Shown: positions 28,965 through 34,046 of the stretch, one piece after another | Position numbering within the stretch: the first letter of the stretch is position 1 | Layout of the letters: each line of letters begins with the position of its first letter | Source: Bacteroidia bacterium | Lineage (GTDB): Bacteria > Bacteroidota > Bacteroidia > B-17B0 > Aurantibacillaceae | Direction: 5' to 3' | Assembly (NCBI GenBank): GCA_025362575.1 | Contig: JANYIQ010000316.1 | Location: 1-42,292 of the forward strand | Length of the DNA: 42,292 nt | The notes under the pieces: generated by a model | Databases searched by the model: none | What the model was told of the DNA's origin: nothing | The model's input: only the letters and a program-made list of their open reading frames with translations | Position numbers and translations under genes: made by a program

Positions 28965-29819
28965 ATGTCACCTAATTTAAATTACGAAGTTTATGCTAAG
29001 GAAAAAGCATATTTCGCCATTAAAATAGTTGCCGCATTGATCGGTTACTTTTTAATTTACTGGGTAATTGATCAAGCTTTGAATAGTCTGCACCCGTCGG
29101 CCTTTTTACCGATGCTGTTCTATATATTGCTTATTATTTTCTATGTGTTCTTTAGATTTGGCATATTAATTGGGTACATAAAAGGAAACTCCATAAAAAT
29201 AACGAGCAAGCAATTTCCGGAGATACATGAAATAATTCAGAAGCAATGTTTTTTACTTGGACTTAAAAAAACACCTGATGTTTTTATCATGCAAAGCGGT
29301 GGTGTGCTGAATGCCTTTGCCACAAGTTGGTTTGGGGCTAACTATGTTGTTATTTATTCAGACATATTAGAAGAAGCTTACGAAAAGAACATTGAAACTG
29401 TTGAGTTTGTAATTGGACATGAATTGGGGCACATTAAACGCAAACACATACTTAAAACATTTTTACTATTCCCTTCATTCATAATTCCTTTTCTGGGCAT
29501 GGCCTACTCCCGCGCTTGCGAATACACTTGTGATAATATTGGTGCAGCTTTGAGTCCGGTTGGTGTAAAGAATGGCTTGGTACTATTAGCAGCAGGAAAA
29601 AAATTATGGAAGCGGGTCAACATAGACCGCCTGGTAGAACAAGAAACTACAGAAGATAGTTTTTGGTTTTGGTTTGCCGAAAAGGTTTCTACGCATCCGC
29701 GCTTAACCAAACGCATTTCACGTTTTAATGTTCCTAAAAAAATAACAGATGAGGTTGCTAAAGAAAAACCGGTTGTTAAAGAAGTGAAGACCGATCATAA
29801 TAGTTATTTACCGAAGTAG
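28965..29819 (+). CDS. M48-family membrane metallopeptidase
   Basis: 284 residues. Two N-terminal membrane helices (about 15-40 and 45-70) are followed by the peptidase domain with the zinc motif HELGHIKRKH (H152, E153, H156). The third ligand is the Glu in YSRACEYTCDNIGA, in the usual ExxxD arrangement of M48 enzymes. A further hydrophobic stretch (FLLFPSFIIPFLGM) follows the zinc helix. The C-terminal tail is charged (KEKPVVKEVKTDHN). Family members (HtpX/Ste24-like) degrade or process membrane proteins with the active site facing the cytoplasm. It begins 29 nt after the aminotransferase stop and lies 5 nt before the SRPBCC gene, so the three may be one operon. Confidence 0.92.
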   Translation: MSPNLNYEVYAKEKAYFAIKIVAALIGYFLIYWVIDQALNSLHPSAFLPMLFYILLIIFYVFFRFGILIGYIKGNSIKITSKQFPEIHEIIQKQCFLLGLKKTPDVFIMQSGGVLNAFATSWFGANYVVIYSDILEEAYEKNIETVEFVIGHELGHIKRKHILKTFLLFPSFIIPFLGMAYSRACEYTCDNIGAALSPVGVKNGLVLLAAGKKLWKRVNIDRLVEQETTEDSFWFWFAEKVSTHPRLTKRISRFNVPKKITDEVAKEKPVVKEVKTDHNSYLPK

Positions 29820-29824
29820 ATCAG

Positions 29825-30244
29825 ATGCCAAAGGTCTTGAAATTAGAATACAGCCTTAATAAAAATGTTTACGATACATTTTTAGATCTCAGAAAATTCG
29901 GCGAACTGCATCCTAATATAGTCAAAGTAAATATTATTGGTAACCCCGAAATTAATTGTGTAGAATACGAGATCTTTGAAGAAATAACATTGCTCGGTTT
30001 TATACCCATGAAACCCTATTACAAAGCCAAGGTTGTTGAAATTGAAAAGGGAAAACACATTCAATATTTGTCGCAAGTGAAAGGAAATGTTTTTTTAGCA
30101 ATTAATTTTACATTTTGGCCAAACGATAAAGGCATGCATGTGAAAGAAGATATTGAAATTACAGGAAATGCCGTTGTAGCTTCTATATTAATGGGTGCCA
30201 TTAAAAAAGCACATACCCAAATTTTTGAAAGTTTACGGAAATAA
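29825..30244 (+). CDS. SRPBCC-fold protein (polyketide cyclase-like)
   Basis: 139 residues with the helix-grip START/SRPBCC pattern: N-terminal strand KVLKLEYSLNKNVYDTFLDL, helix and HPNIVKVNII, central strands (EITLLGFIPMKPYYKAKVVE), and a long C-terminal helix (ASILMGAIKKAHTQIFESL) closing the hydrophobic cavity. Such proteins bind lipids or other hydrophobic ligands; nothing narrows the ligand here. The 5-nt gap from the M48 peptidase gene indicates cotranscription. The stop is followed almost at once by the REP-like repeat. Confidence 0.85.
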   Translation: MPKVLKLEYSLNKNVYDTFLDLRKFGELHPNIVKVNIIGNPEINCVEYEIFEEITLLGFIPMKPYYKAKVVEIEKGKHIQYLSQVKGNVFLAINFTFWPNDKGMHVKEDIEITGNAVVASILMGAIKKAHTQIFESLRK

Positions 30245-30257
30245 TTAATTTCGGGAT

Positions 30258-30325
30258 TTCCTCAGAGGGAGAAAATAGTAATAGCAAATCGCAAAAAACC
30301 TTTCAAAACTCCGTAGGAGCAATAT
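30258..30325 (+). repeat. REP-like repeat, copy 1
   Basis: Begins TTCCTCAGAGGGAG, contains AAAATAGTAATAG and AACCTTTCAAAA, and ends with the small palindrome CTCCGTAGGAGC. It lies just before the transposase ATG. Confidence 0.75.
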
Positions 30326-30329
30326 ACAA

Positions 30330-30818
30330 ATGGCCAACACGTTTTCCCAAATATATATCCATTGCGTATTCGCAACCAAAGATCGTAATAGTGCCATAAG
30401 CAAAACGTGGAAAGACGAACTATATAAATATATTTGTGGCATCGTAAATAATAGCAATCAAAAAGTTTACGCAATTAACGGAGTCTCGAATCACATACAC
30501 ATTCTAATTAGTATCAAACCTAATTGTTTGCTTTCGGATCTTGTAAGAGATATTAAAGCTAGTTCGTCGAAATGGGTAAACACCAAAAGTTTCGTAAAAG
30601 GGAAATTTCAATGGCAAGAGGGCTTCGGTTCTTTTTCTGTTTCCCAATCGCAATTAGATAAAGTAATTGCGTATATAGATAATCAAGAAGAACATCACAG
30701 GAAGTTACCATTCAAGGAAGAATATTTAGGGTTTTTAAAATCATATAACATTGAATACGATGAAAAATATGTCTTTCAATGGGTAGATGATAGTGTCGCT
30801 CCTACGGAGCTTGGATAA
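30330..30818 (+). CDS. REP-associated tyrosine transposase (Y1/IS200-like, RAYT)
   Basis: 162 residues, the size of IS200-type Y1 transposases. The HUH motif is NHIHILI (H55, H57) and the nucleophilic tyrosine is Y115 in VIAYIDNQEEHHRKLPF. The order (MANTFSQIYIHCVFATKDR at the start) is typical of RAYTs in Bacteroidota. RAYTs cut single-stranded DNA at REP hairpins and are thought to spread or maintain REP sequences rather than to move themselves. The last codons (DSVAPTELG then TAA) lie inside repeat copy 2, so the REP hairpin has been taken into the reading frame. There is no accessory TnpB nearby. Confidence 0.93.
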   Translation: MANTFSQIYIHCVFATKDRNSAISKTWKDELYKYICGIVNNSNQKVYAINGVSNHIHILISIKPNCLLSDLVRDIKASSSKWVNTKSFVKGKFQWQEGFGSFSVSQSQLDKVIAYIDNQEEHHRKLPFKEEYLGFLKSYNIEYDEKYVFQWVDDSVAPTELG

Positions 30819-30863
30819 GCTCTATTATTTAATTTGCTATTACTATTTAGTTCCTCTGGAGCT
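30798..30863 (-). repeat. REP-like repeat, copy 2 (inverted)
   Basis: Starts GCTCCTACGGAGC on the plus strand (reverse of copy 1's end), has TTTGCTATTACTATTT in its middle and ends TTCCTCTGGAGC. It encodes the C-terminus of the transposase. Confidence 0.7.
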
Positions 30864-30883
30864 AAAATAAACGATGTAAAATT

Positions 30884-30950
30884 TTCCTCAGCAGGGAAAA
30901 TAGTAATAGAACCATTAACAATAACCTTTCAAAGCCCCTTATGAGCGAAA
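30884..30950 (+). repeat. REP-like repeat, copy 3 (direct)
   Basis: TTCCTCAGCAGGG, AAAATAGTAATAGAACC and AACCTTTCAAAG align with copy 1. The terminal palindrome is degraded to GCCCCTTATGAGC. Confidence 0.65.
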
Positions 30951-30951
30951 T

Positions 30952-30981
30952 AAAAAAGCCGAGAGTTTTACACTCGCGGCT
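30952..30981 (-). terminator. Terminator of trxA
   Basis: On the minus strand GCCGCGAGT / ACTCTCGGC (one mismatch) with a short loop, followed by T6. It lies 53 nt after the trxA stop. Confidence 0.75.
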
Positions 30982-31033
30982 TCTTAAAAAGACTATTTAT
31001 TTAACCCGCTGGAATTAATTCCCATGCGTTGAA

Positions 31034-31351
31034 TTACATCTGAGCGTTAAGCTTAGCTGCTAAATTTGCTTTAGGCACAGCACCAACTTGTTTGTCTACC
31101 ACTACACCATTTTTAAAGAATAAAATAGTTGGAATGTTACGAATACCAAAATTGGTACTGATGTTTGGGTTATGGTCAACATTTACCTTACCAATTACCG
31201 CTTTATCACCGTATTCATTCGCTAATTCTTCTACAATAGGTCCTACCATGCGGCAAGGACCGCACCACTCTGCCCAAAAATCTACTAATACAGGTTTTGT
31301 GCTTTTTAAGACTAACTCATCAAAGTTAGCGTCGTTAATTTCTAGTGCCAT
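31034..31351 (-). CDS. trxA: Thioredoxin
   Basis: 105 residues, the classic length. The active site is WCGPC at residues 29-33 within VLVDFWAEWCGPCRMVGP. The cis-Pro loop is RNIPTILFFKNG, and the C-terminal VGAVPKANLAAKLNAQM completes the fold. No signal peptide, so it is the cytosolic thioredoxin that reduces ribonucleotide reductase, peroxiredoxins and other targets with NADPH via thioredoxin reductase. An unusually clear Shine-Dalgarno-like GGAG precedes it. It has its own terminator and follows the yfhO gene on the same strand with a 112-nt gap. Confidence 0.96.
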   Translation of the reverse strand: MALEINDANFDELVLKSTKPVLVDFWAEWCGPCRMVGPIVEELANEYGDKAVIGKVNVDHNPNISTNFGIRNIPTILFFKNGVVVDKQVGAVPKANLAAKLNAQM

Positions 31352-31360
31352 AATTATTTT

Positions 31361-31364
31361 CTCC
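31361..31364 (-). promoter_or_regulatory. Shine-Dalgarno-like site of trxA
   Basis: GGAG (within AAAGGAGAAAA) lies 9 nt before the trxA ATG. Most genes in this window have no such element, in line with Bacteroidota, so it stands out and may mark high expression. Confidence 0.45.
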
Positions 31365-31463
31365 TTTTTTTTAACCCGTTGGATGCTTATCCTAAGGGTT
31401 TTAGTTAAACTTACTTATTATTATCAAATTATATACCAATTTTTTTTGATGCCGTTTTGTCAC

Positions 31464-34046
31464 TTAAGCGGTCTTTTTACCCTTATTTTCAAAATACATA
31501 CACAAAGCTACGGAAGCTAATACTAAAACAGAACCTGCCAATGAAATAGTATTGCCTGTTTTATAAACAGCCGGTTCAAATTTAAACTCAATTTTGTGCT
31601 TCCCGGCCGCTAAAGGCATGCCTCTTAACACGTAATTAACAGCCACATGAGGCATTATAGTGCCATCAACGTATGCATTCCAGCCCATAGGGTAATAGAT
31701 CTCGGAAAAAACAGCAAACTGAGGGTCTTTTGAATCAGATTCGTAAACCAGATCATTTGCCTTATAGCTTAATAATTTGATGCTGCCATCGCCAGAATAG
31801 GCAGGCTCAACCTTAACCTGCTCTTTATACTTAGTTTGCATAATGGCGTCGGTTTTGGTATTAATGTCATAAAGACCAACAATTTCTTTATCTGCATTTT
31901 CGGCCAGTTTGAGGTTTTTCACGAACCAGGCATTACCATTAGCCTGCTCATTTTTAAAAGGAATCAGAGTTCTGCCATCTTTTCCGCCCGGCATAATGAA
32001 ATATTTTGTGTTAAGCATATTCAATGTACCTAAAGAGCTCATTAAAACATTCAATGCAGAATCACTGTCAACCGCTTTATAAAAACCTTCGGCAAGATGC
32101 TGAACATCCTTATCAATATGGAAATCGATAAGCTCAGCATATTTTTTTAGTTTGGCTCCGTGATATCCTCCAATTGATTTATGCCAATACGAAGTGCGAG
32201 ACTCATTAAAAATAGATTCCAAACCTTCACTTAAATTCATCACTCTATAATCCAGCGACTGATCTTTTAAGATCACTTCATCGGCGGGCGATTGTTCGAA
32301 CTGACCTGCATTCTGACTTTTAGAGATAAATGATTTTTCGTTAAGATAACGGGTGTCAACGGTCCACATATCAACAAGAATGAAAATTCCTAAAGCCGCG
32401 AAGAGTAATTCTTTTTTTAATTTTTTATTCAGATATAAATAAATGAAAATTCCTGCCAAAGAAATAAAAATAAGCGAACGCATGGCATCGGAAGCAAATA
32501 ATTCCTTACGTGCTATGTCGAGTTGTGGAATTAACTCGGTAACGTATTTCTTTATCTGATCTTCAGGACCGCTTCTTGAAAAATTCTGAACCAGTTCTGC
32601 TTCTTCATTCTGACCATGAAATGTGTTTACAAGATCTGGTGCAACATAACTTAATGCGCAGAATCCACCGGTTAATGCAAAGGCAATGATCAGGATCTTT
32701 TTTAACTCAACTTCCTTTTTGAAGAGGCTTAACTTGATTTTATCCTTTAATGATTTTGCTTTTATCAATTCGTTTACGGCTAGTATTGCCAGGATCGGCA
32801 ATGTGAATTCAGCAATAACAACTGCCATGGAAACGGCTCTGAACTTATCATAACCAGGGATAAAATCCATGAAGAAGTTTGTGAAGGCCATGAAATTATG
32901 TCCCCACGACAGTGCCACACCAAGCATGGTGGCAATGATCAGTGGCCATTTCATTTTATGTTTAATAATGAATAAACCCAATACAGCTAAGAACATAACA
33001 ATTGCTCCCATGTAAACAGGACCACCTGTTCCGGGTTGTTCACCGAAGTATGAGCCCATGCTTCCTACCTGTTCTTTAAAATCGGGAGAAACTTTTTTTA
33101 ATGATTTTGGATCAGAAACGCCAATTGGAATGTAAGAAGAACCTCCTTTAAAATCGGGTATCATGAACGTGAAGGTTTCGCCAATACCCTGACTCCATCG
33201 TGTGGCGTATCCTCTATCCAAACCGCTTGTTGTATTAGCTGCGTTACTTTTTCCGGCAGAGTTGATCGTTAATTCTGTTTTTCCACGTGTTGAATATTTA
33301 CCATACTCGGCAGTACACATTAAACTGGCAGCGTTCGGCAACACGCCAATAATGGATGCTGCTATTATGAATACAACTGCCTTACCAAAAGATGCCAATT
33401 GTTTTTCCTTGTATGCATAAAATAAATAAGCTAAGCCAACAATTCCAAATACCATAAAACCATAATAGGTGATCTGAACGTGATTAGCATTTAGTTCAAG
33501 TGCCATGAACAGAACTGTGAGTGCTGAACCCAGCCAATAGCGGCCTTTAAAGGTTAAGATGATCCCACCAAGTAACGGTGCCAAATAACCAATGGCATTT
33601 GCCTTAGAGTTATGACCTGCACCAAGAATAATTATTGAATAGGAAGAGAATCCGTAAGCAATTCCACCTACAATGGCAAGCCAGGGCTCAACATCAAGAC
33701 ATAACAATAAAATAAAGAATCCAAAAAAGTATAAGAACAAATAACCCGATGGATGCGGTAAAAATAATTTGAAAGCCCTGTCAATTGGCGCCATCCAGTT
33801 ACCGGGATATAAAGTAGAGATCTGATATGCCGGCATGCCACCAAACATGGAGTTTGTCCATAATGGCTCTGAATGCTCTGAATTTCTGAAATCAACAATT
33901 TCTTTACTCATACCTTTGTGCTGAGTAATATCGTGCTGATTTAATTCCTTACCGGATAATAAAGGTTTGAAATAAATAAGTGTAATAATAGCGAACAATG
34001 CAACGGCTGCAATGTGAGGGTAAAAATTCTTGATTGAAAACTTCAT
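31464..34046 (-). CDS. YfhO family multi-pass membrane protein
   Basis: 860 residues with about 12-14 membrane helices, a long periplasmic region and a last helix near the C-terminus (SLAGSVLVLASVALCMYF). It begins FALIITLIYFKPLL-like (helix 1), then the conserved periplasmic loop with HDITQHKGMSKEI and LWTNSMFGGMPAYQ, which is typical of Bacteroidota YfhO proteins. The C-terminal part has the membrane-proximal beta domain (FSEIYYPMGWNAYVDG; LRGMPLAAGKHKIEFKF). The architecture is that of GT-C glycosyltransferases using lipid-linked sugars; YfhO homologues in Firmicutes act in glycosylating teichoic acids. The substrate here is unknown. Same strand as trxA. Confidence 0.92.
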   Translation of the reverse strand: MKFSIKNFYPHIAAVALFAIITLIYFKPLLSGKELNQHDITQHKGMSKEIVDFRNSEHSEPLWTNSMFGGMPAYQISTLYPGNWMAPIDRAFKLFLPHPSGYLFLYFFGFFILLLCLDVEPWLAIVGGIAYGFSSYSIIILGAGHNSKANAIGYLAPLLGGIILTFKGRYWLGSALTVLFMALELNANHVQITYYGFMVFGIVGLAYLFYAYKEKQLASFGKAVVFIIAASIIGVLPNAASLMCTAEYGKYSTRGKTELTINSAGKSNAANTTSGLDRGYATRWSQGIGETFTFMIPDFKGGSSYIPIGVSDPKSLKKVSPDFKEQVGSMGSYFGEQPGTGGPVYMGAIVMFLAVLGLFIIKHKMKWPLIIATMLGVALSWGHNFMAFTNFFMDFIPGYDKFRAVSMAVVIAEFTLPILAILAVNELIKAKSLKDKIKLSLFKKEVELKKILIIAFALTGGFCALSYVAPDLVNTFHGQNEEAELVQNFSRSGPEDQIKKYVTELIPQLDIARKELFASDAMRSLIFISLAGIFIYLYLNKKLKKELLFAALGIFILVDMWTVDTRYLNEKSFISKSQNAGQFEQSPADEVILKDQSLDYRVMNLSEGLESIFNESRTSYWHKSIGGYHGAKLKKYAELIDFHIDKDVQHLAEGFYKAVDSDSALNVLMSSLGTLNMLNTKYFIMPGGKDGRTLIPFKNEQANGNAWFVKNLKLAENADKEIVGLYDINTKTDAIMQTKYKEQVKVEPAYSGDGSIKLLSYKANDLVYESDSKDPQFAVFSEIYYPMGWNAYVDGTIMPHVAVNYVLRGMPLAAGKHKIEFKFEPAVYKTGNTISLAGSVLVLASVALCMYFENKGKKTA

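Follow-up and report, generated by a model that had tools for sequence, protein, structure and literature searches.

A candidate insertion sequence-like element with double-hairpin ends around a subclass 1.2 Y1 transposase gene in a Bacteroidia genome

A contig of 42,292 nucleotides from a Bacteroidia bacterium (assembly GCA_025362575.1, contig JANYIQ010000316.1; the whole stretch is called the window here) carries a gene, tnpA, for a Y1/HUH transposase that lies among short hairpin-forming repeats. From sequence comparisons, we interpret the region between positions 30259 and 30862 as a single insertion sequence (IS)-like element of ~600 bp, with repeat copies 1 and 2 as its left and right ends, and we place the probability of this reading at roughly 0.7. 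Across the subfamily of related tnpA loci, a four-hairpin architecture is general, and similarity between loci is mostly confined to the unit that it delimits. The first-pass annotation had described the gene as a repetitive extragenic palindrome (REP)-associated tyrosine transposase (RAYT) with three copies of its REP-like repeat, one of which encodes the C terminus of the enzyme. The parts of the proposed element and the copy beside it are as follows.

30259..30271, + strand: left outer hairpin, in copy 1; read from the sequence, with a mismatched (imperfect) stem and with folding of this end no stronger than that of shuffled sequences, at a position that agrees with the outer hairpin of relatives
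30272..30284, + strand: tail of the left outer unit (3 nt, AT, 4 nt, ATAG); an exact fit to the tail geometry of relatives
30309..30320, + strand: left inner hairpin CTCCGTAGGAG, with a 4-bp stem, adjoining the start codon; read from the sequence, and in relatives often ~15-45 nt before the ATG
30330..30818, + strand: tnpA, encoding a Y1/HUH transposase of 162 aa, subclass 1.2 by motif; supported by PF01797, NCBIfam models, motifs and predicted fold
30798..30810, - strand: right inner hairpin GCTCCTACGGAGC, within the 3' end of tnpA and translated as part of VAPTELG; read from the sequence
30837..30849, - strand: tail of the right outer unit, CTAT first on the + strand; read from the sequence, with a covariance-model match at 30834-30864 (E 0.0065)
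30850..30862, - strand: right outer hairpin GTTCCTCTGGAGC, with one mismatch; read from the sequence, with the covariance-model match
30883..30956, + strand: copy 3, an outer unit with an ATAG tail, a spacer and a decayed inner hairpin, without a gene; 76% identical to copy 1

The repeat copies occupy positions 30257-30330 (copy 1, + strand), 30798-30862 (copy 2, - strand) and 30883-30956 (copy 3, + strand). Copies 1 and 3 are therefore direct and copy 2 is inverted, as had been annotated. An 85-nt query from copy 1 searched against the whole 4.32-Mb genome returned copy 3 at an E-value of 1.1e-6 (76% identity) and copy 2 at 9.0e-5 (75% identity), values that exclude chance matches. The so-called 66-nt repeat consists of two hairpin units and the spacer between them, with some of the palindromes decayed, and copy 2 is longer than was first stated in that its outer hairpin extends to 30862. 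The palindrome CTCCGTAGGAG, of a type that had been assigned to all copies, is perfect in copies 1 and 2, whereas copy 3 carries the degraded form GCCCCTTATGAGC. The proposed common core GAAAATAGTAATAG is found unchanged in copies 1 and 3, whereas its counterpart in copy 2 reads TAAATAGTAATAG. Copy 3 resembles a left end that stands alone beside the element and has decayed.

Hairpin ends at related tnpA loci

The window was compared with 100 tnpA loci, of which 80 were the best among 285 in GTDB genomes and 20 come from the window genome and its genus. Ten of the resulting 101 rows were left out: six that belong to a distant subfamily (L036, L046, L050, L051, L053 and L054), the two parts of one broken locus (L052/L055), and two with truncated frames (L086 and L097). 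The 91 rows that remain underlie the tail-anchored and C-terminus counts. Three rows with short flanks (L059, L092 and L124) were also omitted from the count of hairpins on both sides, which thus uses 88 rows, and the control for unit density near and far from the gene uses 90 rows, without that of the window. A hairpin was scored as perfect if it had a stem of at least 5, a loop of 3-4 and at least 3 G/C.

Structurally, each end includes two short hairpins, one outer and one inner, that are spaced ~50 nt apart. The outer unit comprises a 5-bp stem with a 3-4-nt loop, followed by 3 nt, AT, 4 nt and ATAG. Among the 88 loci, 59 have perfect hairpins both before and after the gene, compared with 0.3 expected from Markov sequences of the same composition, and hairpin positions relative to the gene peak near -80, -25, +5 and +55. 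The AT plus ATAG tail is carried by 37/82 and 29/70 of the outer units, compared with 5/58 and 4/72 of the inner units. The 5' flank of the hairpin is A-rich and lacks a conserved GT[AG]G foot, and the conserved tail is found at its 3' side.

Evidence for a fixed unit comes from anchoring the search on the tail while ignoring the stems. Under these conditions, 114 of 202 AT-N4-ATAG tails, distributed over 54 of the 91 rows, are preceded by a hairpin, compared with 0.3% of tails in shuffled sequence. The gap between hairpin and tail is always exactly 3 nt even though 2-4 nt was permitted. The tails point toward the gene from both sides, with 56 on the + strand and 5 on the - strand upstream, and 42 on the - strand and 11 on the + strand downstream. 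Up to 250 nt from the gene, 118 exact tailed units occur in 44,319 nt, compared with 27 in the 407,269 nt farther out in the same loci, which corresponds to a 40-fold higher density near the gene. Three weak Y1 matches in the window genome (L037-L039, E ~0.04-0.05) have no exact unit nearby, as expected if the unit belongs to the subfamily of the window enzyme.

The stems vary in a manner consistent with base pairing. In a set of 54 units, every one of the five stem pairs shows double-sided changes in some unit, and such changes occupy 65 of 270 cells, compared with 12.9 after shuffling and at most 8 when the partner was slid by 1-3 columns. Because the rows for this covariation analysis were picked for perfect stems, more weight is placed on the tail-anchored test. 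In addition, hairpins of the same locus tend to match each other. The inner left and right hairpins have a common 5-nt stem in 24 of 40 cases (shuffled mean 8.4, maximum 17 in 2000 shuffles), as do the outer left and right hairpins in 18 of 44 (shuffled mean 5.4, maximum 12). In the downstream flanks of L063 and L076, units of ~25 nt are repeated in short tandem arrays, with each tail leading into the following hairpin, an arrangement that hints at joint formation at ATAG.

Comparison of locus pairs suggests where such elements end. For example, L117 and L129, which are tnpA loci from different metagenome-assembled genomes (MAGs), are 92.3% identical from ~99 nt before to ~100 nt after the gene, and these two have no other match at E<=1e-5. 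Among the 327 pairs of loci whose genes are at least 72% identical, similarity is restricted to within 250 nt of the gene in 282. In these 282 limited pairs, the endpoints of similarity show secondary peaks 60-120 nt to the left of the gene and 60-100 nt to its right, which are the positions of the outer hairpins, and similarity exceeds 120 nt in a single pair on each side.

The phylogenetic placement of the enzyme is as expected of a transferred element. Specifically, the window TnpA is 79% identical to the protein of L056, which is labelled Saccharibacteria, and it groups with rows of that type (100/90 support) apart from the paralogs in its own genome or genus. Nearly alike TnpA proteins with similar flanks were also found under different family or phylum labels, namely in Pedobacter (L088) and Chryseobacterium (L098), and in Flavobacterium columnare (L093) and a Limnohabitans MAG (L096). 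These two pairs reflect either recent transfer or mis-binned contigs.

The reading frame at 30330-30818 does end in VAPTELG read from the copy-2 hairpin GCTCCTACGGAGC, as annotated, but this feature now appears incidental. Genes in 75 of the 91 rows encode proteins of 152-154 aa, compared with 162 aa in the window, and the right inner hairpin, where found, mostly begins 0-30 nt past the stop codon. A whole perfect hairpin lies within the last 42 nt of the frame in 3 of 91 rows (the window, L040 and L120), and three other genes (L063, L099 and L104) extend beyond 155 aa yet hold no whole perfect hairpin there. A designed function for VAPTELG was rejected given this 3/91 count. The peptide probably reflects loss of the stop codon that usually precedes the right inner hairpin. 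A terminator-like hairpin with a T-rich tail is also present at 30806-30823, a stretch shared in part with the right inner unit and with the 3' end of tnpA.

Class of the transposase

The tnpA product matches PF01797 (E 3e-28) and has the core domain with the HUH motif and catalytic tyrosine. Its motifs are NHIH, WQ and YIDNQEEHH, and residues H55, H57, W95-Q96, Y115, N118-Q119 and H122-H123 are invariant among 32 aligned sequences. The NCBIfam IS200 model NF033573 is passed with 68.3 bits (cut-off 55), whereas the REP_Tyr model NF047646 is failed with 27.1 bits (cut-off 80). The predicted fold has a mean predicted local distance difference test (pLDDT) score of 84.5, with the ten C-terminal residues (153-162) below 50. 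In a Foldseek search with this model, the nearest structures are the ISDra2/IS608 transposases (2xma and 2vhg; E from 6e-8, query TM-score 0.5-0.6), and the REP enzyme 4er8 appears only at rank 30 (E 3.3e-5).

In the classification by Quentin et al. 2018 (PMC6006769), subclass 1.2 is characterised by the motifs HuH, WQ and Y---Q--HH and by a length of ~148 aa with a C-terminal extension, whereas the motif table gives Y---NP for class 2 (TnpA-REP). The window enzyme, with YIDNQEEHH, NHIH, WQ and 162 aa, agrees with the protein description of subclass 1.2. By motif and by the NCBIfam cut-offs, it is assigned to TnpA-Y1 subclass 1.2 and is IS200-like. Taken together, the Y motif, model scores and fold indicate that RAYT is the wrong name by class. 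The related proposal that an enzyme and its probable substrate lie side by side holds, in that a Y1 HUH transposase gene adjoins its probable substrate, but copies 1 and 2 are best interpreted as the ends of an element rather than as REPs.

The same source describes subclass 1.2 as relatives of IS200 transposases that lack IS properties, enters 'no' for REPs, and states that the typical terminal structures of IS200 are generally absent. The present loci resemble that description in their motifs, in their size of ~150 aa with a C-terminal extension, in their few and diverged copies, and in their occurrence in Bacteroidetes. They differ in that their hairpin ends are conserved, copies without the gene exist, and similarity is limited to the element. 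Hairpins flank 87 of the 88 loci on one or both sides, which disagrees with the published description, and, because the class is defined by protein, we take that description to need revision. Our literature search, with most subscription papers outside it, found no description of subclass 1.2 ends or repeats.

Several features recall other known systems. With IS200/IS605 elements (IS608 and ISDra2, subclass 1.1), the window element shares the HUH/Y1 core, hairpins at both ends, the passed IS200 model and the neighbouring folds. It differs from them in its inverted and double ends, its 3' ATAG tail and its single gene. In addition, the window genome holds four tnpA paralogs only 36-56% identical to that of the window, and no near-identical multiple copies. 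The guide sequences of IS608-type elements lie 5' of the hairpin (PMC8266576), whereas the conserved part of the present units lies 3' of it. TIRYT elements also combine a tyrosine transposase with inverted ends, although many of their terminal inverted repeats carry GGGGWSAS (PMC3733652). The same paper also reports CGTC palindromic repeats, without a dedicated transposase, in Bacteroidetes among other groups, but the stems of these repeats differ from those of the window-type units. The inverted palindromic units around tnpA and the dispersed, inverted gene-less pairs described below are reminiscent of RAYT/REP/REPIN systems, from which the present loci differ in their class 1 motif, the absence of a 5' GT[AG]G foot, the fixed 3' tail, and stems that vary among loci. 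Overall, we rate the system as an IS200-like enzyme in a REPtron/REPIN-like layout with a unit geometry of its own.

Gene-less copies and their distribution

A covariance model (R1) was built without any window-genome sequence from 54 of 83 distinct units with 3-nt loops, chosen for variety. In the window genome, 150 of 1983 first-look candidates were scored with this model, and the E-values are rough. There are 10 matches at E<=0.021 on 8 contigs, including the right outer unit of the window. At E<=10 the number rises to 25, and at least four of these look false by eye. Four of the sites among the 25 matches (C64, C159, C173 and C115) carry gene-less elements of ~140 nt, in which an outer and an inner hairpin are followed by an inverted inner and an inverted outer one. 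C64, C159 and C173 match over their full length and C115 matches over 50-140 of 140, with its left part read by eye. Similarity among the four copies stops within ~7 nt of the outer hairpins, none is located inside an open reading frame (ORF) of at least 90 aa, and they have no common arms, the longest exact inverted flank match being 5-8 nt. The ends of a congener tnpA locus (L049) match those of these elements, which therefore look like its non-autonomous form. As single-stranded DNA, C64 is predicted to form a cloverleaf with its two tails paired (z -6.9).

In light of these elements, the 66-nt sequence and the hairpin structure must be distinguished. The repeat had been proposed to define a family for this genome, with an absence of further copies taken as the sign of a mere local duplication. 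As a genome-wide sequence family, the 66-nt repeat is rejected, since it has only three strong copies and the next-best genome match to the copy-1 query has an E-value of 0.014; the hairpin-ATAG structure does recur elsewhere. At G000:C233:10164-10288 (L136, L137 and L160), two ends lie back to back without a gene in the reverse order (inner-outer, outer-inner), which is perhaps a junction product or an outer-to-outer pair.

Co-occurrence of units and TnpA was assessed in 99 genomes of the class, which are non-independent, by using strict unit filters with 73 candidates scored per genome. TnpA at E<=1e-25 is present in 15 of 18 genomes with a unit (E<=0.001) compared with 39 of 81 without (Fisher p 0.006). 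At E<=1e-44, a cut-off that was picked post hoc, the corresponding values are 14 of 18 and 21 of 81 (Fisher p 6e-5).

The relative G012 has many more copies. There, 150 of 2756 candidates were scored and yielded 144 dispersed R1 matches at E<=1. Forty stretches chosen at R1 matches, and hence a non-random sample, contain 57 outer units (one mismatch allowed), which form 16 inverted pairs and leave 25 units unpaired. Twelve of these 16 pairs are 143-162 nt long, and one pair is predicted to fold as single-stranded DNA into a single long structure (z -13.8). As regards the high copy number expected of REPs, units are many in G012, where outer arms complicate the comparison, and few in the window genome. 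These arms are of three inverted-repeat types with exact inverted matches of up to 16 nt, as exemplified by L214, L217 and L229 (type A), L215, L218 and L232 (type B), and L212 and L213 (type C). Four-hairpin or shorter cores occur inside all three arm types, as if they had been inserted into arms or were swapping them. A narrow GTTCC pattern has 11 sites on the tnpA contig of G012 and 4 elsewhere.

Proposed mechanism and alternative explanations

A mechanism compatible with the single-element reading would begin with TnpA binding the end hairpins as single strands. The fixed tail would be the site of cleavage and joining via Tyr115, probably at or near ATAG, although cleavage at ATAG itself is a guess from its fixed distance to the hairpin. 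TnpA would then move the element and, in trans, its gene-less form; in the window copy, loss of the usual stop codon ahead of the right inner hairpin would have produced VAPTELG. More broadly, subclass 1.2 may represent a distinct type of single-strand transposon with symmetric double-hairpin ends, in which the outer AT-N4-ATAG tails can pair and the excised or copied strand forms a four-hairpin cloverleaf. The same enzyme might spread gene-less elements through Bacteroidota in a REPIN-like manner, independently of the class 2 RAYTs. We advance this wider model only tentatively and consider it possible rather than probable.

Several observations weigh against the interpretation of the region as one element. 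No unit of the window passes the perfect-stem filter, its outer stems are imperfect, and its ends fold with no or slight advantage over shuffled sequences (z -0.2 and -2.0). Given the imperfect outer hairpins, the window copy may be decaying. Among the 88 loci, hairpins are found on one side only in 28, including the window, and on neither side in 1. The inverted ends are unlike those of IS608/ISDra2. Similarity is wider than 250 nt in 45 of the 327 locus pairs and, in most of the 282 limited pairs, already stops no more than 40 nt from the gene. No unit at E<=0.001 was detected in 39 of the 54 genomes with TnpA (E<=1e-25), and 3 of the 18 unit-bearing genomes lack TnpA. In G012, 15 of the 16 paired copies have a further outer inverted-repeat arm, and 12 of 16 have one on both sides (at most 2 mismatches), whereas the tnpA locus there has no clear arm (best B-type match with 2 mismatches in 6.5 kb). 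Finally, no pair of occupied and empty sites was found among seven other genomes of the genus, where the upstream neighbour has one weak match (33%) at a locus without either flanking gene.

The arms around the G012 cores, with none clear at tnpA, suggest that an agent other than TnpA may have spread these copies. The gene-less elements, at least in G012, could then be miniature inverted-repeat transposable elements of another transposase that happen to contain these hairpins. This possibility is unlikely but carries real weight: the copies in the window genome have no common arms (5-8 nt, compared with up to 16 nt in G012), their similarity stops at the outer hairpins, and the presence of one core within three arm types suggests that the core itself is mobile. 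A different concern is that host palindromes or local duplications with a purely passive role happen to lie near a gene domesticated for another job. The 66-nt sequence indeed has only three local copies, and palindromes with other stems are common in the inspected intergenic stretches of the window genome. However, the 40-fold enrichment of units beside the gene, the matching of stems within each locus and the restriction of between-genome similarity to the unit make this explanation improbable.

A bona fide RAYT of class 2 with ordinary REPs would account for the few diverged tnpA copies, the inverted palindromes around the gene and the REPIN-like inverted pairs without a gene. We regard this assignment as highly improbable because the Y motif is YIDNQEEHH instead of Y---NP, the enzyme passes the IS200 model and falls far below the REP_Tyr cut-off, its best folds are ISDra2/IS608 with 4er8 at rank 30, and the conserved part of the unit is a 3' tail rather than a GT[AG]G 5' foot. 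The least probable explanation assigns the hairpins to regulation of the tnpA transcript, for example as terminators or by sequestering the start codon, and not to transposition. In many loci, the inner hairpin precedes the start codon by 15-45 nt, and structural regulation in the 5' untranslated region (UTR) is known for other IS genes. The IS200 gene is regulated through the structure of its 5' UTR. The same type of control is reported for ISPpu9, a different IS (PMC8450116). A regulatory role fits poorly with gene-less copies that carry the identical four units, with a 3' side that mirrors the 5' side and has the identical fixed tail, and with similarity that seldom extends past the outer hairpins. 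Moreover, only 2 terminator-like matches, of which one coincides with the right inner hairpin, lie at positions 29700-31500, where 1.1 would be expected, and no relevant Rfam match was obtained for eight loci. A known RNA family was rejected as a candidate, since that search gave two microRNA matches far under the cut-offs.

Subclass 1.2 had so far been an orphan, related to IS200 transposases but credited with neither IS properties nor REPs. The data give subclass 1.2 a candidate substrate with precise geometry, suggest element boundaries, and link intergenic palindromes of Bacteroidota to a candidate enzyme. If confirmed, this picture would mean that REP-like repeats driven by a transposase arose a second time, independently, and it would allow one to ask directly how a mobile element gives rise to a population of REPs.

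The neighbours of tnpA in the window look like ordinary chromosomal genes and encode a class-V aminotransferase, an M48 peptidase, a thioredoxin and YfhO, together with a 139-aa ORF that has a sub-threshold match only. In the sister tnpA group that was set aside as a distant subfamily, the proteins are ~31-39% identical to that of the window, and longer palindromes such as ACTCCGCACTTTAGTGCGGAGT are present on at least one side in 6 of 6 rows. These longer palindromes may represent a second type of end.
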